Below, piece by piece: positions 16,700 through 35,168 of a stretch of 51,687 nucleotides of DNA. A model generated the notes under the pieces. The model was not told the DNA's origin and did no database searches. It worked only from the letters and a program-made list of their open reading frames with translations. Made by a program: the position numbers and the translations under genes. The DNA lies in NCBI GenBank assembly GCA_022448265.1, contig JAKVCC010000007.1:158791-210477 (forward strand), written 5' to 3'. Within the stretch, counting starts at the first letter, position 1. Each line of letters starts with the position of its first letter. Source of the stretch: Pirellulales bacterium (GTDB lineage Bacteria; Planctomycetota; Planctomycetia; Pirellulales; Lacipirellulaceae).

Positions 16700-18025
16700 T
16701 CAGTCTCCACGCAGCTTCATACCGGCTTCGGTGAGTTTTTCGCGAACTTCGTTGAGGCTTGTCACGCCAAAATTTTTGCACTCCAACAGATCGTCGCCCG
16801 TGCACCTCAACAGTTCGCCAATGGTCGAAAGCCCCAAACGCACCATGCACTTGCGAGCACGCACTGAGAGACCCAAGTCGGCAATCGGCCGATCGAGCAG
16901 GGCCCGTTCATCGTCACTGAGGGAGGTCTGGTCGTAGACGGGCTCTTCTTCGCGCCATTTGTTGGCAAACTGCCCCAATTCCAGGCCCTTGGAAAGCAGC
17001 ATTTCGCGGATCTCGACGAGTGATGTTTCGCCAAAATTTTTACTTGAGAGCAGATCCTGTTCTGAAGTTTCCGTAAGGTCTCCGAGTGTCATCACCCCCA
17101 TCTTTTGCAGGCAATTGCGGCTACGAACCGAGAGTTCGAAGTCTGTCACAGGCACACTCAGAATCTGCGCCATGCGTTCCTGGCGACGCCTTGCGTCTTC
17201 GTCGTAGTACATATCCCGCGACGCGTCCGCATCCTTAAAAAACAATCTCGCCCGGGGATGATCGGGGTACACGTCCAGGACCCGCAGGTAACACTGCTTC
17301 GACCGTTCAAAATGCTCCATGTCTTCATAAAGAAGGCCTAGATTGATCAGTGTACTTACGTGGGCAGGGAACTGGGCAGCCGCTCGTTCGTAAAGCTGGC
17401 GAGCATACTCATCATTGCCGTGCCGATCATTCTCTAGCGCCAATCCAAAGAGCGCACCCGCATGCGTGTCGTCGGCTTCAGCAGCCCGTTCCAAGAGGGC
17501 TACGACTTCGGCCGAGTTGCCCCCCATGGCAGAAATAGTCGCCGAGCGCTGGTAGAGATACTCGCTCGTTTGCTCCACCGCACCGGAAAGACTGTCCAGC
17601 AAGCTCAAGGCTCCCTGCCGATCACCCGTATAGCGGCGGGCTTCCGCTTGCGCCAGGGCAACGTCATCCCGATTGTAACCCGCTCTTTCAGCCGATTCGT
17701 ATGCGGTTAACGCTTCGCTGTACTTATCGAGTGCCAGATTAGCTTTACCCAAATAAAAGTGCGTGAGCGCTCCGCCGTCGGCATTGGCCAAAATTTGCAC
17801 GGCGTCCGTGTAGTGCCCCAGCAAATAAAGGCAAACACCTAACCGAGCCGACGCAGCAGGCGTCCGCTCGGCCTGATCTTGCATTTCCGAAACGGCGTCG
17901 CGAAGCGAGCGAAAATTATTGTAGTCCGCCGAAATGGCGCTCACGATTTGGTGAATCTCGTTTGGCCCAAACGTACTATTGGAAAGAACAATTTGCCTAA
18001 GATCGACATCAACGACTTGCGACAT
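16700..18025 (-). CDS. TPR protein with two RNA polymerase alpha-CTD-like domains
   Basis: A 441-residue soluble protein. Residues 1-265 are helical with tetratricopeptide-like repeats (SARLGVCLYLLGHYTDAVQIL, LTHFYLGKANLALDKYSEAL, LINLGLLYEDMEHFERSKQCY). Two alpha-CTD-like domains follow, at about 293-352 and 378-440, each with the helix-hairpin-helix pattern LSVR...C....G..T.G.L......DLL..KNFG..SL.E.R. Judged against E. coli alpha-CTD, the DNA-contacting Arg265 is kept in both copies (R301, R389). Asn268 is kept in the first (N304) and is Lys in the second, and Lys298 is Thr in both. No RNA polymerase assembly domain is present, so this is not rpoA. AGGAG ten bases upstream supports the ATG at 18025. 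A DNA- or polymerase-linked adaptor is inferred; function unknown. Confidence 0.85.
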   Translation of the reverse strand: MSQVVDVDLRQIVLSNSTFGPNEIHQIVSAISADYNNFRSLRDAVSEMQDQAERTPAASARLGVCLYLLGHYTDAVQILANADGGALTHFYLGKANLALDKYSEALTAYESAERAGYNRDDVALAQAEARRYTGDRQGALSLLDSLSGAVEQTSEYLYQRSATISAMGGNSAEVVALLERAAEADDTHAGALFGLALENDRHGNDEYARQLYERAAAQFPAHVSTLINLGLLYEDMEHFERSKQCYLRVLDVYPDHPRARLFFKDADASRDMYYDEDARRRQERMAQILSVPVTDFELSVRSRNCLQKMGVMTLGDLTETSEQDLLSSKNFGETSLVEIREMLLSKGLELGQFANKWREEEPVYDQTSLSDDERALLDRPIADLGLSVRARKCMVRLGLSTIGELLRCTGDDLLECKNFGVTSLNEVREKLTEAGMKLRGD

Positions 18026-21556: not shown

Positions 21557-21838
21557 TCAGTTGCCACGCTCAAGCTGCGTCCCGATCTCCCTGAGCATTT
21601 CCTCGTCACCGGACAAAGCACTTGGCATGACCGCGGGCTGGAGGATCGGCACCTCGTCCATCCAATAGGCCGTCCCCGTACGATCCACGCCATAGACGGC
21701 TTTTATGATTCGAACGTTGAGGACGATACCGATCTCTGCCCCAGTCCTGTCCAAAACAATCGTGATCATCTCTGCCAGACATTTTTTCACAACCCACGGA
21801 ATCTCACCAAGGCCTCCGCTGTCAACCGGGACCAGCAA
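21557..21838 (-). CDS. Small protein resembling the C-terminal end of FwdB/FhcB
   Basis: An open frame of 93 codons upstream of the FGE-like gene. Its last 60 residues resemble the C-terminus of formylmethanofuran dehydrogenase subunit B. ITIVLD then AVYG then GTAYWMDEVPI line up without gaps with IPYIALD, ATYG and GTVYRMDDVPI of the fhcB product in this window, and SGDEEMLREI matches the helix that follows in FwdB proteins. The iron-sulfur and cofactor-ligand parts are absent, and no frame further upstream continues the homology. The start is uncertain: the frame opens after a TAG and offers TTG at 21838, then GTG, then an ATG about 20 codons in. It may be a remnant of a second fwdB-type gene or a short stand-alone protein. 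Confidence 0.42.
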   Translation of the reverse strand: MLVPVDSGGLGEIPWVVKKCLAEMITIVLDRTGAEIGIVLNVRIIKAVYGVDRTGTAYWMDEVPILQPAVMPSALSGDEEMLREIGTQLERGN

Positions 21839-22201
21839 GTCGACTTCCCCATGCTACAGGAGTGTATCAGCAGTGCACTCACCCGAATCATAGCAGGGAT
21901 ACCCTCGCGTCAGGTTCACACTGAACGGAAATCCTGTCAGCCAGTCAACACGCAACAACAAACGGTGCAGGCGACATCTTCAACGACGCTCGGTGAGGCC
22001 ACAAAGTCATTGCAATAAACTGCTGAGGCGGGAAAATTGATTTCACCACACCCGCGGTGATGTGCCCATGCATTCGAGTCGGGTTCCCGCTAGAGAGATT
22101 CGTCCCCATCGCTTACGATGTCAGAATTCACCTAGCGAGGGGAAACACAAGATCTTGTCAGTTCGTAATTCGCCCATTAATTGCCAACCAAGCGGCACCC
22201 T
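21839..22201. other. Intergenic region upstream of moeA
   Basis: About 360 bases. Apart from poor open frames antisense to the small FwdB-like frame, I see no gene, terminator or molybdenum-cofactor riboswitch consensus. It presumably holds the moeA promoter. Confidence 0.35.
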
Positions 22202-23458
22202 ATGCCAAACGACTCCCGCCAACACCCCAATGCTGATGTTCGCATGCGAGGCTTTGCCGAGCGGATCTCTACTGACGCTGCGTTTGCCTGGCTTAACGCC
22301 GAGTTGGATCGGCAGGGGCGCCTCCCGCTCGAAGTCGTCGCGCTAGACGGCGCGGCGGGCCGCGTGTTGGCTGAAAAAGTAACCAGCAAAGTCAACGTAC
22401 CAGACTTTCAGCGCGCCATGATGGACGGCTATGCCCTCCGCGCAGAGGACATCGCCGCAGCCTCCAGTCAAACGCCAATCGAAATTGAAGTGTTGGCCAA
22501 CTGCTTCCCCGGAAAATCGTTTGACGGCACGGTCGGACCGGGGCAAGCGGTCCGCATCATGACCGGCGCGCCGCTGCCCGCAGGCGTCGATTCGGTATTG
22601 CCTGTGGAACTAACCCGCACAATCGACCAACGGGTCTCGGCAATCGCAAGTTTGCCTGCTGGAAAAAACCTGGGCTCTGTGGGGGAAGATGTCGGTTGTG
22701 GTGATCACCTGTTATCGCCAGGCCGAGTATTGCGACCCCAAGATATTGGCCTCTTGTTTTCGATTGGCCGGAGTCATGTGAGCGTCGTTCGGCGCCCTCG
22801 GGTGAGGATCGTTGTCACCGGCGATGAGCTACTCCCCGCAGGAGCCCAGCCCCAGGGCAATCGCATCGTCGACGCGAATGGGCCGATGCTCCTTGCGCTG
22901 GTTGCTCGCGATGGGGGCGTACCCAATCATCCAGGAATCGTAGCAGATAATCCTGAGGCAATTTTGGCAGCCATCAGCGAAGATGCCGACGTAATTCTCA
23001 CTTCAGGCGGCTCGAGTGTCGGCCAGGAGGATCATGTGCCGACGCTCCTGGCCAAACATGGCCAACTGGCCGTACACGGCGTGGCCATGCGCCCAGCCGG
23101 TCCGATCGGAATGGGAGTTTTGAACGATCGGCTAGTGATCTTGCTGCCAGGCAATCCGGTAGCTTGCCTGTGGGGCTACGACCTGCTGGCCGGCCACGCG
23201 ATTCGCCAATTGGGTGGTCGCGGCGCCGACTGGCCCTATCGCAAGTACGTCGGTCGATTGACGCGCGACCTGGTTTCACCGGTGGGACGGCTCGACTACG
23301 TGCGCGTTGCGATCAGCGAAGGGAACGTCACGCCCGTGACTAGCAGCGGGGCATCCGTGCTAAGCTCGACAACGCGCGCCGATGGCTTTCTGGTAATCCC
23401 AACTGAAACAGAAGGCTACGCCGCGGCAGCAGACGTCGAGGTGTTTTTGTACGACTAG
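22202..23458 (+). CDS. moeA: Molybdopterin molybdenumtransferase MoeA
   Basis: MoeA inserts molybdate, or tungstate in W-specialised paralogues, into adenylylated molybdopterin. The 418-residue product shows the full family pattern: VNVPDFQRAMMDGYALRAED near residue 62, RIMTGAPLPAGVDSVLPVE, KNLGSVGEDVGCGDHLL, VVTGDELLPAGAQPQGNRIVDANG, the MPT-binding loop LTSGGSSVGQEDHVP, and LPGNPVACLWGYDLL before the C-terminal domain. The ATG at 22202 was chosen. A TTG seven codons earlier and an ATG 14 codons later are possible, and no strong Shine-Dalgarno helps. Its place beside fhc, mobA, moaD and tup genes suggests that it loads the metal for those enzymes. Confidence 0.95.
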   Translation: MPNDSRQHPNADVRMRGFAERISTDAAFAWLNAELDRQGRLPLEVVALDGAAGRVLAEKVTSKVNVPDFQRAMMDGYALRAEDIAAASSQTPIEIEVLANCFPGKSFDGTVGPGQAVRIMTGAPLPAGVDSVLPVELTRTIDQRVSAIASLPAGKNLGSVGEDVGCGDHLLSPGRVLRPQDIGLLFSIGRSHVSVVRRPRVRIVVTGDELLPAGAQPQGNRIVDANGPMLLALVARDGGVPNHPGIVADNPEAILAAISEDADVILTSGGSSVGQEDHVPTLLAKHGQLAVHGVAMRPAGPIGMGVLNDRLVILLPGNPVACLWGYDLLAGHAIRQLGGRGADWPYRKYVGRLTRDLVSPVGRLDYVRVAISEGNVTPVTSSGASVLSSTTRADGFLVIPTETEGYAAAADVEVFLYD

Positions 23459-25047: not shown

Positions 25048-25875
25048 CTACATCGCCGCCGCGCTACGCACTAGTATTTCGCCGCGCCCCAGTGCGACCA
25101 GGTCGCCATTGAATACATCACACTCGGCAGTGAGCAGCTCGTCGTCAATAGTAAAGCCTTGCCTGCGCAGCTCGTTGAACATGACGGGAAGCACCTGCGG
25201 GCGTGCTGTGCAAGCAAAGCGAAAACTAGGGAGAATCGCGGGCGGGTTGGGGCCGAAGAGTCCCAATGTGCCACGCCGCATGCCGGCCCCCGGACGTATG
25301 CCGCACTCGCCAAAGACTAGCACCGTACCTGCAATCATGTTGAAGCCCAGCATGTCGCCCGCACGGCCGCCGACCGCAATCATGCCGCGGCGCATCGTTA
25401 GGCCTACCTCATTGCCAACGTGGCCATCAACGAGGATCGTACCGCCAGTCATACCTTTTTCCGAACCCCGATAAGCGGCGCCCACCAGATGGCCCGCGCT
25501 ACCATGCACATGAATGAATCCGCCCTGCATTTCGGCGCCGACCCATCCACGGGCGTCGCCATGAACATGAATCGTGCCACCCGACATTTGGCTACCGATG
25601 TGCCGCCCGCCAGGGCCATGGATATGGACCTCGCCGTCGGCCATCTCCGCGCCTATCCAGTGCACGCCGGTCAAATCGCCGTGAAAATCAAAACGCAGGT
25701 CGTCAGCACTACCTCCGAGACTAAACATCTCGGCCAATGGCAAACGCTCGTTACCGTGAAATATTTCAAACTGCCCAATCTGGGCCAGCGTTTTTCCGCG
25801 GGCCCAGGTGGGCGTAAGCCCCTCGATTTCAACCGGGACGGAAGTTTCAGCTTGGTAGGTAAGTGTCAGCGGCAT
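25048..25875 (-). CDS. fhcC: Formylmethanofuran dehydrogenase subunit C (FhcC/FwdC)
   Basis: FhcC is the beta-helical scaffold subunit related to the glutamate synthase alpha C-terminal domain. The 275-residue product shows the repeating GG.I.V.G..G..VG coils: MSGGTIHVHGDARGWVGAEM, MQGGFIHVHGSAGHLVGAAY, MTGGTILVDGHVGNEVGL, IAGTVLVFGECGIRPGAGM. The frame is open 82 codons further upstream, but that extension overlaps the divergent mobA gene and is unlike the family. The ATG at 25875 (MPLTLTYQ) fits. GAAGAA precedes it. It is separated from fhcA by mobA, which runs the other way, so fhcC needs its own promoter. Confidence 0.93.
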   Translation of the reverse strand: MPLTLTYQAETSVPVEIEGLTPTWARGKTLAQIGQFEIFHGNERLPLAEMFSLGGSADDLRFDFHGDLTGVHWIGAEMADGEVHIHGPGGRHIGSQMSGGTIHVHGDARGWVGAEMQGGFIHVHGSAGHLVGAAYRGSEKGMTGGTILVDGHVGNEVGLTMRRGMIAVGGRAGDMLGFNMIAGTVLVFGECGIRPGAGMRRGTLGLFGPNPPAILPSFRFACTARPQVLPVMFNELRRQGFTIDDELLTAECDVFNGDLVALGRGEILVRSAAAM

Positions 25876-25946
25876 AAGGCGATTCTTCGTATAATCGGAT
25901 AGCTTGAAGCACAGGGTACCATCTGATTCGTGGCTGGACAGGACCA
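25876..25946. promoter_or_regulatory. Divergent promoter region of fhcC and mobA
   Basis: The 71 bases between the chosen starts of fhcC (minus) and mobA (plus) must contain both promoters or their overlapping elements. This is inferred from gene orientation; I did not identify specific -35/-10 boxes. Confidence 0.45.
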
Positions 25947-26573
25947 ATGAGGCAAGGCGCAATAATTCTTTGTGGCGGGAAGTCGTCGCGGATGGGAACG
26001 TCCAAGGCGCTCCTGCCCGTTGGTGCGGAAACAATGCTCCAGCGCGTAGTGCGTTTGGTAAGTGAGGTCGTTCCCGCCGAGAATATCGTCGTGGTTGCCG
26101 CCGCGGAACAACGTTTGCCAACCCTTTCCAGCCGAATCCTGCTTGCGCAGGATGGCCATGAAAACCGCGGTCCGCTGGAGGGTCTGGCCGCGGGACTGGA
26201 GCGACTGGCTGAACGCGTCGATGCGGTTTACGCCACTGGCTGCGACGTGCCGCAGCTCGTACCGGCTTTTATTGAGCGGGTATTCGAACTGCTCGGCGAC
26301 CACGATATTGCCGTTCCTGCCGATGGCAAGTTTCGCCATCCTTTGGCGGCCGTTTATCGCATGTCGGTACTCGCTCATGTGAGGCAACTCCTGGCAGCGA
26401 ATCGGCTGCGGCCTGTTTTTTTGTTTCAGCAGCTCGACACTCGCGAAATACCAATCGATGACCTGCGCACAGTCGACCCCAATCTTGCGACGCTCGAAAA
26501 CATCAATAGGCCGGAAGACTACTTAAAAACCCTGCAAGCCTTGGGCCTGAAACCTACGGACGGCCACAACTAA
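25947..26573 (+). CDS. mobA: Molybdenum cofactor guanylyltransferase MobA
   Basis: MobA joins GMP from GTP to molybdopterin, forming the guanine dinucleotide cofactor. The 208-residue product begins with the nucleotidyltransferase signature LCGGKSSRMGTSKALLP (residues 8-24, with Lys20). NRGPLEGLAAGL and the metal-site segment YATGCDVPQL follow, then RHPLAAVYR and the C-terminal ENINRPEDY. All expected residues are present. The ATG at 25947 is the first start. It lies between fhcC and fhcA in the opposite orientation, and its stop overlaps the fhcA stop by four bases tail to tail. The position implies that the Fhc complex here uses a bis-MGD-type cofactor. Confidence 0.95.
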   Translation: MRQGAIILCGGKSSRMGTSKALLPVGAETMLQRVVRLVSEVVPAENIVVVAAAEQRLPTLSSRILLAQDGHENRGPLEGLAAGLERLAERVDAVYATGCDVPQLVPAFIERVFELLGDHDIAVPADGKFRHPLAAVYRMSVLAHVRQLLAANRLRPVFLFQQLDTREIPIDDLRTVDPNLATLENINRPEDYLKTLQALGLKPTDGHN

Positions 26574-28231
26574 CTTCGCATTCCCACAACTTCTGGATCG
26601 TGCATGTAACTGAGATCCACCGGGTAATTGCGCCAGCGAATCGAATAGTACTTTTCGAACCAGTCTTGAATATCCGGCTCTAATTCCAAGTCGTACTCCG
26701 GCGCAACGTAAAGTGTTTTGCCAACGGGCGACTCCCGCATCTCACCTTCCTCGACAATCACCCGACCGGCCTTGATAACCAGTCGCGGCATTTCAAACAT
26801 GATTTCTTTGTTTTCGTGCGGCGTGTAAACCGTGATGTCAGCGTCCGCCCCCGGCCCAAGATGGCCCTTGTTCTTAAGTCCAAGGATTTTTGCCGGACCG
26901 GCGCGGGTAATAATCGCAATTTCGCTTAGCGTGTACTCGCGGTCAATGTCCGCCAGCGTAGAACGCTTGCCCACCAGTGGATGGCATGTCTTCAGCACGT
27001 CCTGCCGATACGTACGATCCATCAAGTAACGAATAATTTGCGGATAGGCGAGAAACGAAGCCCCATTGGGATGGTCGGTACTCATGACCACCCGCCAGGG
27101 GTCTTCAACCAGCAGATACCACTCCAGACCAATCGCCCACTGCAGCGCGTGCACGAGCGACTTGTTCTTGTACTTGATGGGAGTGATGCCGCAGCCGGAT
27201 TCCATCTCGGTATCGCCGCTAAACCACTTCTTCCCGTAGACGTTCGACAAAAAATATCCCAATGGTCCGTCGCCCGTCATACTTGTCGTTTCGCCAAACA
27301 GCACCTGGCCAACATCAACCGTGACGTTGGGGTGCGAATTGACGTACGCAGCCAACGGAACAACTTTGCTGTTAAACGTATTTTCGTCTCCGTCACCGCC
27401 TCCGTAACTATGGAACTGGATGTGGGTAATGTGTCCGCGGCGGCCTTCGAGAGCTTTCATCGATTCGAGCGTCGTTTCCCAATTGCCCGGCATGCCCAGA
27501 TTGTTGCAATGGATATGCACGGGGTGAGGCAGGCGAAGCGCCTCGGCCGCCTGCGAAACCTGACTGATGATCTGCCGCGGCGTAACGTCAAAATGGTCGA
27601 CCATCGAATCGATACCATGCACGTTGCCTGCTTGCTTTTGCTTCCAGACTTCTACGCCGCCTGGGTTGACCAGTTTGGGTGCAAAACCCTTCGCCGAACC
27701 GAGGAGCCACGCCACAAACGCCTTCAGCTTTTGCGGCTCGTTGTCCTTGATGGCCTTCATCAAGTAGTGATTGTTGCCCATCAGGACGTAAAAGCCCTTG
27801 TCCAGACAGGGCGTATCCTCAAATTCCTCGTGGGCGTGCCGGGCGGCCAAGGGCGGAATGGCGGCGTCAAAGGCCGTAGTATAGCCTAGGCCTGCGTACT
27901 TGTAGCCCGTGGCAAACGTGCTCGGAACGCTGCCCATCGTGCCGCTGTGCGTAATCGCCGTGCGCTTGACGCGCTCAGCCCGGCGTTTTTCTTCAGGACG
28001 CATCTTCCTCGCCACATTCACCTTGGGGCCAGCGATGTGGCAGTGCATATCGATGCCACCCGGCATCACCACCATCCCGCTGGCGTCAATCGTTCGGTTC
28101 ACTGGCGCCGACGGGTCGCTCGCCTGTGCGACGATCTTGCCCCCCTCAATCCACAGGTCGCGAACTTCGCCATGGATGCCATTGGCCGGATCGTAGACCG
28201 AGCCGCCGTAGATCTTAATGAGGTCAGACAT
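26570..28231 (-). CDS. fhcA: Formylmethanofuran dehydrogenase subunit A (FhcA/FwdA)
   Basis: FhcA is the amidohydrolase-type subunit with a binuclear metal site; it interconverts formate and N-formyl-methanofuran or its bacterial analogue. The 553-residue product contains GGIDMHCHIAGPKVNVARKM (HxH at residues 63 and 65), PHPVHIHCNNLG, GHITHIQFHSYG, and VMSTDHPNGASFLAYP with the catalytic Asp. These match archaeal FwdA and methylotroph FhcA in order and length. The ATG at 28231 follows GAGAAGAA. It is 37 bases downstream of fhcB and surely co-transcribed with it. Confidence 0.95.
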   Translation of the reverse strand: MSDLIKIYGGSVYDPANGIHGEVRDLWIEGGKIVAQASDPSAPVNRTIDASGMVVMPGGIDMHCHIAGPKVNVARKMRPEEKRRAERVKRTAITHSGTMGSVPSTFATGYKYAGLGYTTAFDAAIPPLAARHAHEEFEDTPCLDKGFYVLMGNNHYLMKAIKDNEPQKLKAFVAWLLGSAKGFAPKLVNPGGVEVWKQKQAGNVHGIDSMVDHFDVTPRQIISQVSQAAEALRLPHPVHIHCNNLGMPGNWETTLESMKALEGRRGHITHIQFHSYGGGDGDENTFNSKVVPLAAYVNSHPNVTVDVGQVLFGETTSMTGDGPLGYFLSNVYGKKWFSGDTEMESGCGITPIKYKNKSLVHALQWAIGLEWYLLVEDPWRVVMSTDHPNGASFLAYPQIIRYLMDRTYRQDVLKTCHPLVGKRSTLADIDREYTLSEIAIITRAGPAKILGLKNKGHLGPGADADITVYTPHENKEIMFEMPRLVIKAGRVIVEEGEMRESPVGKTLYVAPEYDLELEPDIQDWFEKYYSIRWRNYPVDLSYMHDPEVVGMRS

Positions 28232-28268
28232 GGCACATTCATTCTTCTCGGGTCATCGAAACGCCTGC

Positions 28269-29609
28269 TTACCCCTGCACGCCACGCAGCATCTTGACGC
28301 GCTTTTCAATATTCTCGAGCACGACTAAATCGCTCGGATGAGGCGACTCGAAAGCCGGGCGCAGCGGAATGGGGACGTCGTCCATGCGGTAGACGGTGCC
28401 ACCCGTGTTGATACCGTAGGTGGCCACTGTGAAGGCGACCGCCGCGGCGCGGGTGGTTGGGGTTTCTTTGGCGTCGAGTGCAATGTAGGGAATAGAGCCC
28501 AGATGCTCGCGAGCCGGCTGCGAAAAATTGGCCATGGGGTCACATGCAATCATCATGCCGCAATCGGCCTCACCATTGGCCAGCGTGTCGGACGTGGTGT
28601 ACTCGCCCGGGTTGAATCGCGGGTAACCGCGATTGTGATTGACGCCAAAGGGAAAACCCGTGCGCCATGCCACCACGTTGTCAGCACCCGTCACATTGCC
28701 ATGGCCCCGATTGGGCTTGGCGACGAAACGTGTGTGGCTATTCATGTCGCGAGTCAGGGCCAAGAGTGCTTCGCTATTGGCGTGTTTGCCACGGGTCATC
28801 GTCAGGCCCATCCCAAAGAAAATCGCGCCAAACTTGGCCGCCTTCATGCGCTCCATGAGATCTTGCCAAACAGCCAGTTCGATGCCCGTTTCTTTTTGCA
28901 CTCGGTTGGCATCGAGTTCGATGTCTTGAGCCAGAGCGCGAAGGGTCCACAGGGCTTCGAAATCCTTGCGCGGTTTGATCTGCAAAAATATATCGGCCGC
29001 CTTGGCGCTCTTGGTTTTACGGACGTCCACAATCACACAGGTACGATCCTTGCGACCATTAGGCAAAAACATTCCCTTAGGCATCAGACTGTACTTGGTA
29101 AAATGCCGCGGGTGGCTCTCGGCCGGGTTCGAACCCCAAAACATGATGAAGTCGCCCCGGTTGGCCACTTCACCCAGAGTGCAGGTCACTTCGCCGACAC
29201 CTTGGAACGCCATGCCCGACGGGCCGTGACAAACACTCGTGGTGGTGTCGATGGTGCCATCCAGCCAGTCGGCAATGCTCACCGCGACGCGCTGGGCTTC
29301 GCTGGGCGAATCGCTGAGTCCGTAGATAATCGGGTACTTGCCCGCCACAAGAATTTTGGCCGCCCGGTCGTAGCCCTCCTCGAGCGTGGCCGGCTGCCCG
29401 TCGACGAGACAAGAAGGCTTGTCTTCGATTTCGTGATTCAGAAACCACGCCTTACCGAGCACGCAGGCGCGCTGGGCCTTGGTAATGTGGTTGTTCTCTA
29501 CAGTGAGATCGATGTCGTCGCAGACGCAGCCGCAAAACGTACAAGTGGCGTCTTTAACAATCTTAAGATCACCCGACGAGGCAGGTGCTTTGCTTTCAAC
29601 AGTCGCCAT
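28269..29609 (-). CDS. fhcB: Formylmethanofuran dehydrogenase subunit B (FhcB/FwdB), cofactor-binding type
   Basis: This is the formate-dehydrogenase-like subunit. With the ATG at 29609 (GGAGG eight bases upstream) it has 446 residues. It keeps the [4Fe-4S] cysteines C23, C26 and C30 in CTFCGCVCDDI and C49 in RACVLGKA. The segment SVCHGPSGM has Cys127 where archaeal FwdB has its W/Mo-ligand Cys or Sec. TCTLGEVANRGDFIMFWGSNPAESHPRH follows. The C-terminus reads GGTVYRMDDVPI. By established knowledge the proteobacterial methylotroph FhcB is thought to have lost these cofactors, so this version looks redox-competent. The next gene up encodes the separate FwdD-like dinucleotide-binding subunit. 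A 433-codon antisense open frame lies opposite and is not real. Confidence 0.94.
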   Translation of the reverse strand: MATVESKAPASSGDLKIVKDATCTFCGCVCDDIDLTVENNHITKAQRACVLGKAWFLNHEIEDKPSCLVDGQPATLEEGYDRAAKILVAGKYPIIYGLSDSPSEAQRVAVSIADWLDGTIDTTTSVCHGPSGMAFQGVGEVTCTLGEVANRGDFIMFWGSNPAESHPRHFTKYSLMPKGMFLPNGRKDRTCVIVDVRKTKSAKAADIFLQIKPRKDFEALWTLRALAQDIELDANRVQKETGIELAVWQDLMERMKAAKFGAIFFGMGLTMTRGKHANSEALLALTRDMNSHTRFVAKPNRGHGNVTGADNVVAWRTGFPFGVNHNRGYPRFNPGEYTTSDTLANGEADCGMMIACDPMANFSQPAREHLGSIPYIALDAKETPTTRAAAVAFTVATYGINTGGTVYRMDDVPIPLRPAFESPHPSDLVVLENIEKRVKMLRGVQG

Positions 29610-29975
29610 GGAAGGGGCCTCCATGGCACGATTTTCTAAGCCGTCTCGCCCATCCACAGTCGTACCGCAGGCAGAGGGGCGACGGGAGCTGCCGCCCCAG
29701 TCCGCTGGCGTTCACACGCCAGACTCTTATTATGTCGGCAAGAGGGGGGCTTTTCAACAGCCGGAGTCTAGCGACCATCGTATCGGCCAGCAGGGTCCCC
29801 CGGATTCAATTTTAATGCCCCAGGCCCTCACGGCCGCCTAATGGACTGAAAACGACTGTAATTGACGGTTAACCGGCCGTTCGTCCCTGGTCCTTGGATT
29901 TCGCCATCGGGCCATTGCTTTCCTTGACCGCCCGCCCAACCGGAGCCTGCCCCAATGAGACACCCGCATCCGCGT
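29610..29975. other. Gap between fwdD-like gene and fhcB
   Basis: About 366 bases within an otherwise collinear minus-strand gene set. No gene, T-run terminator or clear hairpin was found. Its size leaves room for an internal promoter before fhcBA. A short frame on each strand has no support. Confidence 0.4.
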
Positions 29976-30356
29976 TTACGCGTGGTGCCCGCCAAGGTCT
30001 GGGGACAAGTTCTTGAGAACTTCTAGCTCCACATCCATCCCCTTGCTGGTCGGCATCCCCGACCCGTGCGTATCGCCCCCCATCAGCCGGCTGGAAATGT
30101 CACCATAAGCGATAAAGAGCAAGCCCTCAGGCAGCTCGCCTTCCCGGGCCTTGATTACGGCCACTTCGACCTGCTGACCATGCTCGCTTGTTAGCCGCAC
30201 AAAATCGCCAACCTCAAGCCCCAGCCGCTCCATGTCGCCGGAGGCAACCTGCAACGAGTTGATTTCTTGCTGATACTTCTCTTGAAACTTTCCTTCACTA
30301 ATACCGCAACCTTGATTGCTCGTGCGGCCAGGAATGAGAATGAATGTTTCGGGCAT
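29976..30356 (-). CDS. fwdD: FwdD/FmdD-like molybdopterin dinucleotide-binding subunit
   Basis: A 126-residue protein with the double-psi barrel of molybdopterin dinucleotide-binding domains: an opening LIPGRTSNQGCGISEGKFQEKY, LGLEVGDFVRLTSEHGQQVEV, and GLLFIAYGDISSRLMGGDTHGSGMPTSKGM. In archaeal formylmethanofuran dehydrogenase this domain is subunit D and completes the FwdB active site; in formate dehydrogenases it is the C-terminal domain. Its presence next to fhcB supports a real dinucleotide cofactor in this complex. The ATG at 30356 starts directly before the conserved opening. The gene lies 162 bases after the AOR gene on the same strand. Confidence 0.88.
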   Translation of the reverse strand: MPETFILIPGRTSNQGCGISEGKFQEKYQQEINSLQVASGDMERLGLEVGDFVRLTSEHGQQVEVAVIKAREGELPEGLLFIAYGDISSRLMGGDTHGSGMPTSKGMDVELEVLKNLSPDLGGHHA

Positions 30357-30518
30357 GATAGTATTCTGGCCGGAGGCAGTAGGGAAAGCAAGTCTGGGTC
30401 AGGCGAGCCCGACGCAGACTCATCCGTAGGTACTAGCCTCGGGTTTCTGTGCGAGGGCGGTCCGGTCGTTCACCCGCGGCTACCGCCGACGGCTGTAGAG
30501 GTGCACTGGAAACTTCAT

Positions 30519-32297
30519 TCATTGCTCGTTTCCCCCAACTGGGTATCCATCTGGCGACCAGCCCCTCGCTAAATTGTATGCTTCGACTAGGGCCTGCAGC
30601 CGCTCAGGCGAAAGCTGTGCGCGGGTGTCGTCGGGCAAAGGTGAACGGAGCATTCGCTGCGGCAGCGTATCTTCGTCCGGGGTCCAGCCCGCGCGTATGT
30701 TGAATTCTTTTTTTTTCGTCACGATGCGCCGCGCGGTCTCGCGAAGTTCATCGGCCGCAACCTCCCAACCGGTGACGAGCCGCAGCATTTCGGCCGCTTC
30801 GGCGAAATAATCGACAAACACACCTCGCAAAAATTTGCAGAGGATGAGCGAATCCATGATTGCCCCTTTGTCTTCGGTTTCGACGGCCAAGACGGCCGCT
30901 TCGGGGCCCACATTGCGGCGATCCACGGCCTCGGAGAAATCGACCTCGTAGGCTCCCGAACGATTGTGGTCGGCTCCGCGAGCGCCCACCGCAAACCCCA
31001 GGGCCATCGTTTGCAATCCACGAGGATCATAGCCGGGTATTTCCAAACCCTTGACTTGCGGGGCAAAAGCAATGGTGTCCTGCCCTATCTCCAGCGCCAG
31101 CCGACGGCTGCCCTGGGCCAGTCGGACTCCCAGGCCTGTGCCCGTCGCCATTTCGTCCAGCGCGCGAAGCAGCGCCGAGCCGTCACCGAATCGAAGCCAG
31201 TCGGCATCCAGATACCCTCGTTCCGCGCACTCCATGGCAAACGCGATCGTGCCGCCCGCGCTGATCGTATCGAGGCCTTGCTCGTCGCACACTTGCGAGG
31301 CGGCAAGCACGACATCCGCATCGGCAACTCCGCACAATGGGCCCAGGGCGAAGAGGTTTTCGTATTCGACTCGGACCTTGGCCTCATGGCCATCGCGTTT
31401 GTCTCCTAGGGCGTAGATATGTTCGCAGCCGATCGTGCAAGCGGCACAGGAGGACCGGGTCCGCTCGCGGCTGATGCTGAGCGTCTCGGGTGCGATCGTG
31501 GCGGCACCCTCAAAGCTTCCCTGCTGAAAATTCCGCGTGGGCAGCACGTTGAGCCGGTTGAAGGCCAGCAAGTTCGACGCTGTGCCAAGTTCGCGATACT
31601 TGGCCGTTGCCGGGCCGAAGGACTTTTCGGACAGTTCCTTGGCTAGGCGGGTCAGTGCCTTGGGATCGGCCCACTCCACTGGCTGGCTGCCGCGAACGGC
31701 CACGGCCTTGATGTTTTTGGAGCCCAATACGGTACCGCTGCCACCGCGACCCGCGTGCCGGCCGTCGTGCGAGATGGTCGCGAAGCGCACTTGCCGCTCG
31801 CCGGCGGGGCCAATAGTGGCCACTTGAAAGTCGGCGCCCAACCGCTGGCGCAGGCGGAGCTGCGCTTCGCCGTTGGACAGACCCCAAAGCTGTCCGGCGG
31901 GCTCAATGCGAACCCTATCGTCGTCGACAATAACGATTGACGGCTCCGCGGCTCGCCCCACAAGCACGATCGCATCATGGCCACTTTTTTTTCCGGAGAT
32001 CGCAAAACCGCTACTGGCAAGCGAATCGTTGATCCGCTCGGTCAGCGGGCTCTTACTCACCACCGCAAACTTCGCGGAGGTCGTCAGTGGACTGCCAACA
32101 AGTGGACTAAAAACAAAAGCAATGGCCGCCGCAGGCGAAAGCGGATCGGCCTCTGCGGTACCTTCCTCGAGCAACAGCTTTACGCCCAGTCCACTGCCAC
32201 CCAGATAATCGCGCAGCACCCCTTCGTCCAAACCAACCGATTGAGCCTCTTGGGTGGTGACGTCTATGCGGAGGTAATTGAAGTGGTAACCAAACAT
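30519..32297 (-). CDS. Aldehyde:ferredoxin oxidoreductase family protein (tungsten enzyme)
   Basis: A 592-residue member of the AOR family, tungstopterin enzymes that oxidise aldehydes to acids with ferredoxin or reverse the reaction. N-terminal cofactor-binding motifs are LGGSGLGVKLLLEEG, SPLTERINDSLASSG and GRGGSGTVLGSKNIKAVAV. The [4Fe-4S] ligands are C284, C287 and C291 in SCAACTIGCEH and C487 in SLILCKFLRG. The pterin-contact motif CDEQGLDTISAGGTIAFAME is present. All motifs are intact and the length is near normal. The ATG at 32297 opens with the usual YLRIDVT strand. The moaD gene ends 58 bases upstream. The substrate is unknown; formaldehyde or another C1 aldehyde would fit the neighbours, but this is inference. 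Confidence 0.92.
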   Translation of the reverse strand: MFGYHFNYLRIDVTTQEAQSVGLDEGVLRDYLGGSGLGVKLLLEEGTAEADPLSPAAAIAFVFSPLVGSPLTTSAKFAVVSKSPLTERINDSLASSGFAISGKKSGHDAIVLVGRAAEPSIVIVDDDRVRIEPAGQLWGLSNGEAQLRLRQRLGADFQVATIGPAGERQVRFATISHDGRHAGRGGSGTVLGSKNIKAVAVRGSQPVEWADPKALTRLAKELSEKSFGPATAKYRELGTASNLLAFNRLNVLPTRNFQQGSFEGAATIAPETLSISRERTRSSCAACTIGCEHIYALGDKRDGHEAKVRVEYENLFALGPLCGVADADVVLAASQVCDEQGLDTISAGGTIAFAMECAERGYLDADWLRFGDGSALLRALDEMATGTGLGVRLAQGSRRLALEIGQDTIAFAPQVKGLEIPGYDPRGLQTMALGFAVGARGADHNRSGAYEVDFSEAVDRRNVGPEAAVLAVETEDKGAIMDSLILCKFLRGVFVDYFAEAAEMLRLVTGWEVAADELRETARRIVTKKKEFNIRAGWTPDEDTLPQRMLRSPLPDDTRAQLSPERLQALVEAYNLARGWSPDGYPVGGNEQ

Positions 32298-32354
32298 AAA
32301 TGCTGAAACAAACGCGGCGGCCCATGGTCATGGGGACATTGGTTATTTCGTTTC

Positions 32355-32618
32355 CTACCCCCCCGCATCCAAGGTCAGTAACAATATCGTGTCGCCTGAA
32401 TTTAATTTCGTCTCTGAATCGGTAACAAACTGCTCGCCTCGCAAGTTGACCGTGTACCCGGGGCGAAGGCGACGACCGTCAATACACGTTTCGGCCAAAC
32501 CAGGAAATTTCTGGGCCAGGTCCGCCAGAACATCCCCCAGGCGATCACCATGGACGATCGTCTTCGCCACACCAGCCCGCGCGCGGGGAATCCCAAACAG
32601 TTCGACATGAACTTCCAT
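32355..32618 (-). CDS. moaD: MoaD/ThiS-family sulfur carrier protein
   Basis: An 87-residue beta-grasp protein with the diagnostic C-terminal Gly-Gly (TILLLTLDAGG), which is adenylated and thiocarboxylated to donate sulfur for the molybdopterin dithiolene. The fold follows from VHVELFGIPRARAG, LGDVLADLAQKFPGL and the closing strand. The ATG at 32618 was chosen because GAGGG lies ten bases upstream; a TTG fifteen codons earlier is the only alternative. AOR genes are often accompanied by a dedicated MoaD-like protein. It leads the minus-strand moaD-AOR-fwdD-fhcBA set and diverges from tupABC. Confidence 0.9.
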   Translation of the reverse strand: MEVHVELFGIPRARAGVAKTIVHGDRLGDVLADLAQKFPGLAETCIDGRRLRPGYTVNLRGEQFVTDSETKLNSGDTILLLTLDAGG

Positions 32619-33007
32619 GGGCAAAAGACCCTCAACAAGGGGGCAGGGCTCTTGGATGAGCAAAAAACGGGCAGGCGGCTTGGTTCAGACGGTCCTTGGT
32701 ACACTTCCGAAAAAGATACTCCCGACCAGTTAACAATAGTGTGACACTTCAACCAATTTTCAAACGGTTTGGAGTCTCAATTCTTAGAGATCTTGCTGCC
32801 GGCTGATGGTTTTGAAATGGGTTCTTGTGGATTGGGTGTAGGTAAGGCATCCTAGGTAGGGATCATTGCGCCGCCAATAGCGCCGTGCCACCGCTGGCTA
32901 AAACGGTGCCTTCCGCCAAAAACGGGGGGGCAGTGGCCTATTCGCAGCGCAAATATCGATAAACTTTAAGTTCGCCATCCTTGAGCAGCCAACATCCGTA
33001 AGATTCC
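32619..33007. promoter_or_regulatory. Divergent regulatory region between moaD-AOR-fhc and tupABC
   Basis: About 390 bases that must carry the promoters of the tungstate transporter and of the AOR/fhc genes. Visible structure is limited: a CACCG-(10 nt)-CGGTG hairpin at about 32889-32908 and a repeated GCGCC-type motif just before it (about 32869-32885). I could not match a molybdenum/tungsten cofactor riboswitch consensus or a ModE-type operator by eye. No supported gene lies within. Confidence 0.45.
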
Positions 33008-33874
33008 ATGTTCCCCTATTCTACTCGCTCGGGTTGCCGATCGACATGGCTTCCGACCCTTTCGCTGCTGCTTTCGGCGACCTGGTGCGGCTGCGGTGGC
33101 GACGATTTGGCCAGTCGCCCATCGCTCAAGGTCGGCACGACCACCAGTGCCCGGGATTCCGGCATATTGGACCAGTTGTTGCCCCCGTTCGAAGCACGAC
33201 AGCACGTTCGCGTTGATGTTATTGCTGTCGGCACGGGCAAAGCGCTAAAACTAGGCGAGGCAGGCGATGTTGACGTCTTGTTGGTACACGCCCGCGAGGC
33301 CGAAGATGCGTTCATGGAAGCTGGCCACGGCACGCGCCGAGAAGATGTCATGGAAAACAGGTTTGAACTACTGGGCCCCGCAACCGATCCGGCAGCTATT
33401 CGCGGCATGGACGCCCCGGCAGCCATGCAAAGGATCGCCGCCGGCCGTTTTTCGTTTGTCTCTCGCGGCGATGACAGCGGCACTTACAAACGCGAACTTT
33501 TACTCTGGAAGGTGAGTGGCACAGAGCCCGACTGGCCCAAATATATTGAGAGTGGACAAGGCATGGGCGCCACGCTCACGATCGCCGATGAGTTGGCAGC
33601 GTATGTGCTGACCGACCGCGCCACGTGGCTGAATTTCCGGAACAAGGTCGATCTGGTTCCGCTGGCGACACAAACGGCCAAGCTGCGCAATCCGTATGGA
33701 GTGATTGTCGTCAATTCCAAAAAAAAAACCAACAAAGGAGCCGCCGTGCGCGCCGAAATGGCGAACGCGCTAGTTGACTATCTCACCTCACGCGACGCCC
33801 AGAAAATCATCGCCGATTTCCGTTTAGCGGGCGAAGCACTATTTGTGCCGCTCCACCTGCCTGCAGCTGATTGA
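33008..33874 (+). CDS. tupA: Tungstate ABC transporter substrate-binding protein TupA
   Basis: A 288-residue periplasmic or lipid-anchored binding protein. The N-terminus is a signal peptide ending near WCGCGGDD, with a Cys that may be lipidated although the lipobox is unusual. The TupA motif TTTSARDSGILDQLLPPFE, which holds the oxyanion-binding Thr/Ser residues, starts at about residue 44. VDVLLVHAREAED, FSFVSRGDDSGTYKRE (near 155) and AYVLTDRATWL follow. These distinguish tungstate-type TupA from ModA, although specificity is known only by family. It begins the plus-strand tupABC operon, divergent from moaD. Confidence 0.92.
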   Translation: MFPYSTRSGCRSTWLPTLSLLLSATWCGCGGDDLASRPSLKVGTTTSARDSGILDQLLPPFEARQHVRVDVIAVGTGKALKLGEAGDVDVLLVHAREAEDAFMEAGHGTRREDVMENRFELLGPATDPAAIRGMDAPAAMQRIAAGRFSFVSRGDDSGTYKRELLLWKVSGTEPDWPKYIESGQGMGATLTIADELAAYVLTDRATWLNFRNKVDLVPLATQTAKLRNPYGVIVVNSKKKTNKGAAVRAEMANALVDYLTSRDAQKIIADFRLAGEALFVPLHLPAAD

Positions 33875-33884
33875 CGGTGCCCTT

Positions 33885-34580
33885 ATGGATCTAATCTGGG
33901 AAGGTTTGCAGGAAGCCGTTCGACTTGTGCGGAGCGGGGATCAGCTCATTCTGGATGCGGCTGGCTTAACGATTTGGGTGTCGGCCCTGGCCGTGACGCT
34001 GGCGACCCTGGTCGGCCTGCCCCTGGGCGTTTGGCTTGCCAGAGCCACCTTTCGGGGAAACTACTTGATCGTGCTCGTATTTCGAGCCGGAATGGCACTG
34101 CCGACCGTTTTTGTCGGCATGCTTTGTTATGCTTTGTTATCGCGCAGAGGCGTACTCGGACCGCTAGAGTTGCTCTATTCGCCAGGCGGCATCATCTTCG
34201 GCGAGTTACTGTTGGCAGTGCCGATCGTCGTTGGCATCAGCCATGGCGCCATCAAATCGCTCGACCCGCGGGTCGGCGAAACGGCCCTGACCCTGGGAGC
34301 TACGCCCCTCCGTCGCGGCCTGACATACCTCTCTGAGGCGCGCTTGGGTGTAATGCTGGCAGTGCTTACGGCATTTGCCCGCTGTGTTACCGAACTGGGG
34401 ATTGCCATGATCGTGGGCGGCAATATTAAAGCGCGCACCCGCACACTCGCCACGGCCACAGCCCTGGAAACGGGCAAGGGTGAGTTTGCCCGCGGGATGG
34501 CGATGGGCACCATTTTGCTCGCCATCGCCCTGATCGCAAGCTGCCTGATTGGACTGCTCGGCCGCGAGCAAAAACGGTAG
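33885..34580 (+). CDS. tupB: Tungstate ABC transporter permease TupB
   Basis: A 231-residue inner-membrane permease with about five or six helices (LTIWVSALAVTLATLVGLPLGVWL, FRAGMALPTVFVGMLCYALLS, IIFGELLLAVPIVVGISHG). The cytoplasmic coupling segment reads ETALTLGATPLRRGLTYLSEARLGVMLAVLTAFARCVTELG, the EAA-like loop of TupB/ModB permeases. The ATG at 33885 lies ten bases after tupA; an ATG inside tupA, 42 bases earlier, is less likely. tupC starts six bases after its stop. Confidence 0.93.
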   Translation: MDLIWEGLQEAVRLVRSGDQLILDAAGLTIWVSALAVTLATLVGLPLGVWLARATFRGNYLIVLVFRAGMALPTVFVGMLCYALLSRRGVLGPLELLYSPGGIIFGELLLAVPIVVGISHGAIKSLDPRVGETALTLGATPLRRGLTYLSEARLGVMLAVLTAFARCVTELGIAMIVGGNIKARTRTLATATALETGKGEFARGMAMGTILLAIALIASCLIGLLGREQKR

Positions 34581-34586
34581 TGCCCC

Positions 34587-35168
34587 ATGATCGACATCAA
34601 CCAACTCCAGGTCATTCGCCAACAGACAACCATTTGCCAGGTCGACCGTTTCCAGGCTAACCCGGGCGAGCACGTTGTCGTAGTCGGCCCAAACGGCTCG
34701 GGCAAGACCACCCTGCTGCGGATCCTGGCGGGGCTCGCTACCGACTTCACGGGCCAGTGCCAGGTACGGGTCAATCGTCGGGAGCGAACCTACCTGCACC
34801 AGCAACCGTTGTTGTTGCGCGGTTCGGTCCTTGGCAATGTCCGCTACGGGCTACGGGCCAGGGCAGGGGGGGAGGCTTCGGCTAACAAGCTGCTGGACCG
34901 TCTTGGCGTAGGATCGCTTGCTCACAGATCAGTCGCAACCCTCTCCGGTGGAGAGATTCGGCGGGTTGCTTTGGCCCGGGCACTGGCCTGCCAGACCCAA
35001 CTGCTTCTGCTAGACGAGCCACTGGCCGATTTAGACAATCGGGCAACGACCAATGTTTGCCAAATTCTCAATGAGTTCTCTCACACAACGATCGTGGTTG
35101 CCTCGCCCGTCGATCCACCCCAAGAACTCGCTTGCCGGAAGTTTATCCTGGACCCGCCGGGGGTGTAA
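34587..35168 (+). CDS. tupC: Tungstate ABC transporter ATPase TupC
   Basis: A compact 193-residue ABC ATPase. Walker A is GPNGSGKT at residues 34-41, the Q-loop lies near Gln72-73 (YLHQQPLLLRGS), the signature is LSGGE (119-123), Walker B is LLLLDEP (139-145) and the D-loop LADLD follows. The H-loop is odd: VVASPVD stands where VVATHD is expected, so the switch His is Pro174. Together with the short length this suggests altered hydrolysis control, or a sequence difference worth checking. The ATG at 34587 is six bases after tupB. The protein should power tungstate uptake through TupB. Confidence 0.9.
   Translation: MIDINQLQVIRQQTTICQVDRFQANPGEHVVVVGPNGSGKTTLLRILAGLATDFTGQCQVRVNRRERTYLHQQPLLLRGSVLGNVRYGLRARAGGEASANKLLDRLGVGSLAHRSVATLSGGEIRRVALARALACQTQLLLLDEPLADLDNRATTNVCQILNEFSHTTIVVASPVDPPQELACRKFILDPPGV

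Follow-up and report, generated by a model that had tools for sequence, protein, structure and literature searches.

Do the formylmethanofuran dehydrogenase-like genes of planctomycetes encode a redox enzyme, or a formyltransferase/hydrolase (Fhc) complex in which the metallocofactor has been lost? This question is raised by a locus from a Pirellulales bacterium, where fhcA, fhcB, and fhcC are found together with a separate gene for an FwdD-like, molybdopterin-dinucleotide-binding subunit. The locus lies in a stretch of 51,687 nucleotides (G000:C67:158791-210477, contig JAKVCC010000007.1), referred to here as the window, from a 3.64-Mb genome in 87 contigs that is 97.3% complete; genes were named from NCBIfam and Pfam profile scans of the window proteins. 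A preliminary description of the window had argued for formate/CO2 redox chemistry from the presence of subunit D, four [4Fe-4S] cysteines, and a complete metal supply chain. We consider it highly probable, judging from sequence, that the genes encode a bacterial formylmethanofuran dehydrogenase (FMD) of the ABCD kind in its redox form. The case is carried by intact pocket ligands, FwdD, kinship with archaeal FwdB, relatives with selenocysteine (Sec) at the ligand position, and the lack of a detectable PF00384 enzyme in the genome, whereas the arguments from the cysteines and from a single gene island had to be given up.

The ligand pocket of FhcB

The fhcB gene (28269 to 29609, minus strand) matches TIGR03129 at 465 bits. 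The residue numbers in the preliminary description (C23, C26, C30, C49, and C127) are right for an ATG start at 29609; the longest open reading frame (ORF) opens at a GTG at 29657. With these cluster cysteines, a ligand-type Cys127, the adjacent His128, and the distal Arg301, the protein has what is expected of a Fwd/Fmd B subunit, and it is unlike the Fhc B subunit, in which metal ligand and pocket are absent. Its nearest sequences in the PDB are FwdB/FmdB chains (9sfi, 372 bits; 5t5i, 352; 8rja, 339; 9sw6, 304; 7bkb, 281), whereas FhcB of Methylorubrum extorquens (6s6y) is remote at 56 bits. This distance speaks against the competing idea of a Methylorubrum-like formyltransferase/hydrolase, in which FhcB would be a scaffold, formate would leave the complex, and the FwdD-like protein would be a relic or have another role. 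We regard that idea as improbable, and the comparisons below bear on it in both directions.

To place the window protein among its relatives, 184 stretches were matched and 163 relatives recognized, of which the best 80 were fetched; the locus sample therefore leans to the window's own type. Most of the relatives belong to records whose titles name planctomycete metagenome-assembled genomes; one record is titled "bacterium" (L041) and one "Euryarchaeota archaeon" (L050). The latter is a planctomycete-type FhcB in a 1.6-Mb genome, and its contig is probably misbinned. FhcB types were set post hoc by phmmer score against the window protein (type I, >500 bits; type II, 340 to 500; type III, <340). 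Ligand scoring omitted L095, a duplicate of L094, and the short L112; the comparison of conserved columns omitted L114 as well.

All 89 type I proteins have the four cluster cysteines, His128, and Arg301, and position 127 is Cys in 86 and Sec in 3. The 12 type II proteins likewise all retain the four cysteines, His, and Arg, with Cys (7), Gly (4), or Ser (1) at the ligand position. Among the nine type III proteins scored, the cysteines are again complete (9/9), but the ligand and His are absent throughout (0/9) and Arg is found once (1/9); in L106 the ligand loop is deleted. Because these degenerate planctomycete paralogues retain all four cluster cysteines, the cysteines do not discriminate, and we rejected them as a marker of the redox form: they are present, as the preliminary description noted, but they do not carry the meaning it gave them. 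The existence of type III proteins that keep the cysteines is also a point in favor of the Fhc alternative, as are the seven type II proteins that retain Cys, His, and Arg yet have no adjacent FwdD. In view of the latter, Cys, His, and Arg alone prove nothing.

Discrimination comes instead from a wider set of pocket residues. Four archaeal FwdB sequences are identical to one another at 111 alignment columns; of these, the window protein keeps 70%, type I on average 71%, type II 61%, and type III 41%. C127, H128, G129, R197, K275, and the RGHxN motif are present in at least 98% of type I proteins. Residues G129, R197, K275, G302, H303, and N305 are kept in 98 to 100% of type I but in 0 to 25% of type II, with K275, H303, and N305 missing from 12/12 type II rows; C127, H128, R197, and K275 are missing from 8/8 type III rows. 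Type II is thus set apart by the loss of these six residues, with the ligand Cys staying in 7/12. What sets type III apart is that the ligand and His128 are gone and, in most cases, Arg301 as well; on its own, the ligand Cys discriminates only against type III. This retention in type I and loss in the other types argues against Fhc. The alignment and tree suggested as a check in the preliminary description found the ligands intact and the window protein grouping with archaeal FwdB, with the cysteines alone uninformative. In a tree of 59 rows (unrooted, midpoint display), which took 35 of 90 type I rows including the window (chosen rows plus 15 random ones), type I and archaeal FwdB are separated from types II and III with branch support 100/100. 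Support is 93/99 for type I and 98/98 for type III, the placement of type II is without resolution, and some branches are very long. Toward close relatives, FhcB shows a nonsynonymous divergence (dN) of 0.07 to 0.14, with synonymous divergence (dS) >1.5 or not computable.

The three type I proteins with Sec (L092, L093, and L094) each contain one in-frame UGA, exactly at the ligand position, in the context HTSLUHGP. This UGA at the tungsten/molybdenum ligand probably encodes selenocysteine, and an exchange of Cys and Sec at this single position would be expected of a metal ligand; it argues against a scaffold role for type I FhcB. SelB scores above its cut-off in all three genomes, and in 5 of the 10 genomes tested overall, the window's own included. 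The latter has SelB at G000:C19:11172-13076 (L123), though its FhcB uses Cys. A review describes the Sec-FwdB selenoprotein from methanogenic archaea, to which these planctomycete candidates would add a bacterial group.

Subunit D and its partner

The fwdD-like gene (29976 to 30356, minus strand) reaches 65 bits with NF042908, under the strict cut-off of 175, and 28.9 bits with PF01568, narrowly above the cut-off of 26.8. Five FMD subunit D sequences from the PDB match the protein at 27 to 58 bits, and the first seven Foldseek matches of its predicted model (pLDDT 81) are all FMD subunit D (TMq 0.65 to 0.72). A D subunit as in Fwd/Fmd is therefore recognizable, if below the strict NF042908 cut-off, where Fhc would have none. 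Subunits A and C complete the ABCD set. FhcA (26570 to 28231, minus strand; TIGR03121, 764 bits) is an amidohydrolase whose HxH, Lys, His, and Asp motifs align with 5t5i_A; we take these to be the metal ligands of its binuclear site. FhcC (25048 to 25872, minus strand; TIGR03122, 241 bits, cut-off 130.65) is the GXGXG-repeat subunit; its ORF extends to 26121, yet the match begins at residue 85 of the long ORF, near 25870. These two subunits, like FhcD, are shared with Fhc, which is a point for the hydrolase alternative.

FwdD accompanies type I FhcB but not the degenerate types. It is found with FhcB in 65/80 related loci. Upstream and on the same strand, it occurs in 70/83 type I loci that have this flank, compared with 0/12 type II and 0/9 type III loci. 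Thirteen type I loci lack an adjacent FwdD; in 12 genomes searched in which FwdD does not adjoin fhcB (the genome of L015 is outside these), 10 carry it elsewhere. At the level of whole genomes, a strong FwdD (at least 83 bits) was found in 18/20 genomes with type I and in 0/15 with only type II or III (Fisher p=4e-8, kinship ignored), and 14 of these 15 are listed as 99 to 100% complete. In one locus (L117:5211-6998, minus strand), a 596-amino-acid ORF fuses an N-terminal FwdD to a C-terminal FhcB, with fhcA downstream and fhcD nearby. FwdD has a dN of 0.10 to 0.16 to three or four close relatives (dS >1.5 or not computable). The occurrence in 65/80 loci and the low dN of both proteins indicate that the association of FwdD with FhcB is not due to chance, and both this dN of FwdD and the confinement of its strong matches to type I genomes speak against the Fhc alternative.

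We also considered whether the FwdD-like protein serves the neighboring aldehyde:ferredoxin oxidoreductase (AOR) rather than FhcB. The AOR gene (30519 to 32297, minus strand; PF02730 and PF01314) encodes both the AFOR_N and AFOR_C domains and the CxxCxxxC...C cluster motif, and the protein aligns with 1aor (323 bits), cluster cysteines included. A link between AOR and FwdD is suggested by four genomes (G304, G291, G305, and G308) in which the two genes adjoin on one strand and FwdD is not near FhcB. However, five type I genomes that have FwdD (G300, G266, G117, G148, and G309) gave no AOR match, G130 and G061 have FwdD but only a 34 to 38% identical AOR, and AOR is found without a strong FwdD in G024, G137, and G194. 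The AOR cofactors are not known to be dinucleotides. From this co-occurrence across genomes and the FwdD-FhcB fusion in L117, we rejected the assignment of FwdD to AOR, which we now consider very improbable. We take the adjacency to reflect a shared cofactor supply and possibly a shared ferredoxin.

Supply genes, C1 route, and evidence against the redox form

All genes listed in the preliminary description were found in place, with family models of varying strength. Along the minus strand, moaD is followed by AOR, fwdD, fhcB, fhcA, and fhcC, with mobA antisense between the last two; tupABC is divergent upstream, and moeA lies beyond fhcC. The mobA-like nucleotidyltransferase gene (25947 to 26573, plus strand) reaches 116 bits with PF12804; its best NCBIfam models are MobA (103, 88, and 88 bits, all below cut-off), followed by MocA at 65. 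The moeA product (22181 to 23458, plus strand) passes the cut-offs of PF03453, PF00994, and PF03454. The moaD-like sulfur carrier (32355 to 32618, minus strand) scores below cut-off with TIGR01687 (25 bits) and PF02597 (21.8 bits), and the protein terminates in GG. The tungstate genes, all on the plus strand, encode a TupA-like binding protein (33008 to 33874; NF041772, 181 bits, cut-off 400 not reached), a TupB-like permease (33843 to 34580; NF038017, 188 bits, above the cut-off of 100; NF041773, 178 bits, below 320), and a short ABC ATPase of 193 amino acids (34587 to 35168; PF00005, 91 bits) named TupC by position. An Rfam scan of the window at gathering thresholds, examined for a molybdenum or tungsten cofactor riboswitch, returned only a tRNA. 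Elsewhere in the window (16700 to 18025, minus strand), we noted a 441-amino-acid protein that combines tetratricopeptide repeats with an RNA polymerase alpha C-terminal domain (PF03118, 139 bits).

The idea of one island with the whole metal supply chain did not survive comparison with other loci. TupA/TupB were found in only 3/80 (L003, L004, and L006) and AOR in 31/80, counts that include many loci truncated at the end of a contig. Both are better described as optional neighbors; mobA occurs in 22/80. AOR orthologues (at least 55% identity) occur in 11/19 type I genomes, G307 being left out of this comparison, versus 3/15 genomes without the redox form (p=0.04). AOR and FMD may exchange electrons.

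No second user of a bis-molybdopterin guanine dinucleotide (bis-MGD) cofactor was recognized in the genome. A PF00384 search of the window's own genome gave no match, with 11/14 control genomes positive; Pfam does not detect FhcB itself. The FwdD profile finds only FwdD in this genome, and in 14/34 other genomes it gives matches of 21 to 32 bits to long ORFs (324 to 1104 amino acids) that are taken to be mostly molybdoenzymes. As PF00384 gave no match and the FwdD profile finds FwdD alone, FhcB/FwdD is the only bis-MGD enzyme recognized in this genome. The genome search for ModA gave only subthreshold matches (50 and 37 bits, cut-off 62.5), which does not prove tungsten over molybdenum.

The remaining steps of the C1 route are encoded outside the window. 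As the preliminary description stated, FhcD is absent from the scanned window proteins; the sole match in the genome (G000:C2:195970-196842, 380 bits) is on another contig. Fae (257 bits) and Mch (359 bits) were also found on other contigs, so that three of the genes it had proposed to look for are accounted for and key genes of the tetrahydromethanopterin (H4MPT)/methylofuran route are present. The gene beside mch encodes a RimK-type ligase, which scores best with the model for tetrahydromethanopterin:glutamate ligase (212 bits, below the cut-off of 350). A second, divergent Fae-like protein (G000:C45:78407-78901, L127) reaches 116 bits and so narrowly misses the Fae cut-off of 118.

These observations led us to a model in which Fae, Mch, and FhcD would carry the C1 unit from formaldehyde to formyl-methylofuran, and FhcA would free formate within the complex. 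FhcB and FwdD would hold a tungsten (or molybdenum) bis-MGD bound by C127, plus a [4Fe-4S] cluster on C23, C26, C30, and C49. Formate would be oxidized to CO2, and the cluster would relay two low-potential electrons, in the simplest case to a soluble ferredoxin; CO2 reduction in the reverse direction would also be possible. MobA may provide the dinucleotide, and MoeA, MoaD, and TupABC the cofactor and tungstate, shared with AOR. Metal, cofactor loading, direction, and electron acceptor are what we infer in this model. A complex running mainly in reverse, from CO2 to formyl-methylofuran, could for example feed C1 biosynthesis with electrons from AOR or ferredoxin. Archaeal FMD runs reductively in methanogens, and the AOR could furnish low-potential ferredoxin; however, the presence of Fae points to formaldehyde oxidation. 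Direction is not readable from sequence, and we consider the reductive alternative unlikely.

Several observations weigh against the redox form, beginning with the seven type II proteins and the low NF042908 score described above. The AlphaFold model of FhcB is poor (pLDDT 63, from 16 rows) and was not used for pocket geometry. In the three Sec-FhcB genes, a similar hairpin about 21 nucleotides after the UGA is only mildly more stable than shuffled sequences (z -0.6 to -1.7). The two type I genomes without FwdD are those of L050 (the 1.6-Mb bin) and L073. Among the 25 most shared neighbor clusters near 89 type I fhcB genes, whose representatives were read by eye, no electron-transfer gene was recognized; FwdF and FwdG were not searched genome-wide. 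The negative PF00384 result leaves metal-free NAD formate dehydrogenases and the sulfite oxidase family outside the search. The genome also encodes a xanthine dehydrogenase (XDH)-family molybdenum hydroxylase with a 2Fe-2S subunit gene (L152:463-3643, minus strand), so that the case for MobA serving FhcB depends on its product being MGD and not molybdopterin cytosine dinucleotide. Finally, type I is patchy: it occurs in 9/294 genomes drawn across the phylum, 25/294 having a real FhcB (>130 bits), and is full length in 5/14 genomes of the genus, accompanied in three of them by a second FhcB. Eight others in the genus have another FhcB (38 to 48% identical), to which G320 adds a fragment of type I, and one has none.

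The window itself contains the remnant of a second, type II-like fhcB (21566 to 21990, minus strand), which the preliminary description did not mention. A tblastn search with the intact copy of L004 matched residues 17 to 30 (E 0.035, weak by itself) and 313 to 438 (E 2e-30) as adjoining segments that lack what lies between them in L004, and the remnant has one in-frame TAG. In L003 and L004 this gene is whole and in the same place beside moeA. We read this as the loss of the second fhcB in the window's lineage, although an assembly error may be the cause. A broader picture, which we put forward tentatively and at somewhat less than even chances, is that two fates of this enzyme coexist in planctomycetes: type I, accompanied by FwdD, as a redox FMD, and types II and III as paralogues that are progressively losing the cofactor. 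The second copy would be dying in the lineage of the window, where a formaldehyde-to-CO2 pathway would have come to end in a tungsten FMD in the absence of any PF00384 molybdoenzyme, with low-potential electrons passing to a ferredoxin shared with the linked AOR.

Relation to known systems

Earlier accounts of bacterial Fwd proteins differ. An opinion article from 2016 that deals with H4MPT/methanofuran genes lists fwdD in Archaea, Synergistetes, Firmicutes, and NC10 and not in Planctomycetes or Proteobacteria (PMC5020050); contrary to this, many planctomycete genomes here carry fwdD. A 2020 study speaks of bacterial FwdB as absent (PMC7331816), and a 2023 survey counts 149 bacterial FwdB (PMC10100899). 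Among the matches listed in the open-license literature, we found no report of a redox FMD form in Planctomycetes. Where type I is present, C1 metabolism would be read no longer as releasing formate but as possibly forming or fixing CO2 with low-potential electrons, and these planctomycetes may oxidize C1 units fully to CO2 instead of halting at formate. A natural series within one phylum, from redox enzyme to probable scaffold, would also make the origin of the cofactor-free hydrolase testable.

Among characterized systems, the archaeal FwdABCD(FG) complexes (Methanothermobacter wolfeii 5t5i, along with 9sfi, 8rja, 9sw6, and 7bkb) share with the window the A to D subunits, the B cysteines, the Cys/Sec ligand, the His and Arg, and the D fold. 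The window differs in keeping 70%, not all, of the columns invariant in archaeal FwdB, in having no electron-transfer subunit recognized among the neighbors, and in its setting, with Fae in the genome, fwdD beside AOR, and mobA between fhcA and fhcC. In common with the Fhc of M. extorquens (6s6y), there are A, B, and C and also FhcD. However, in the published account, subunit D is absent from that complex and the B loops are remodeled, which explains the loss of the metallopterin (PMC11656701), whereas the window keeps D and the pocket residues. The AOR resembles 1aor and its relatives in both domains and the cluster cysteines, and differs in being flanked by a moaD-like gene and fwdD.

The closest bacterial parallel is in the Hakuba Actinobacteria, so that bacterial FwdABCD is already known and the planctomycete form is a recurrent but patchy addition. 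The published description of these Actinobacteria gives the gene order fwdDBA-ftr-fwdC, a [4Fe-4S] domain, and Cys118, with FwdE/F/G not found; it reports no recognized H4MPT synthesis genes and the presence of Wood-Ljungdahl genes (PMC7325909). Both are bacterial FwdABCD sets with the D-B-A order, but the window's genome has FhcD, Fae, and Mch on other contigs, and its FwdABCD genes are adjoined by AOR and TupABC.

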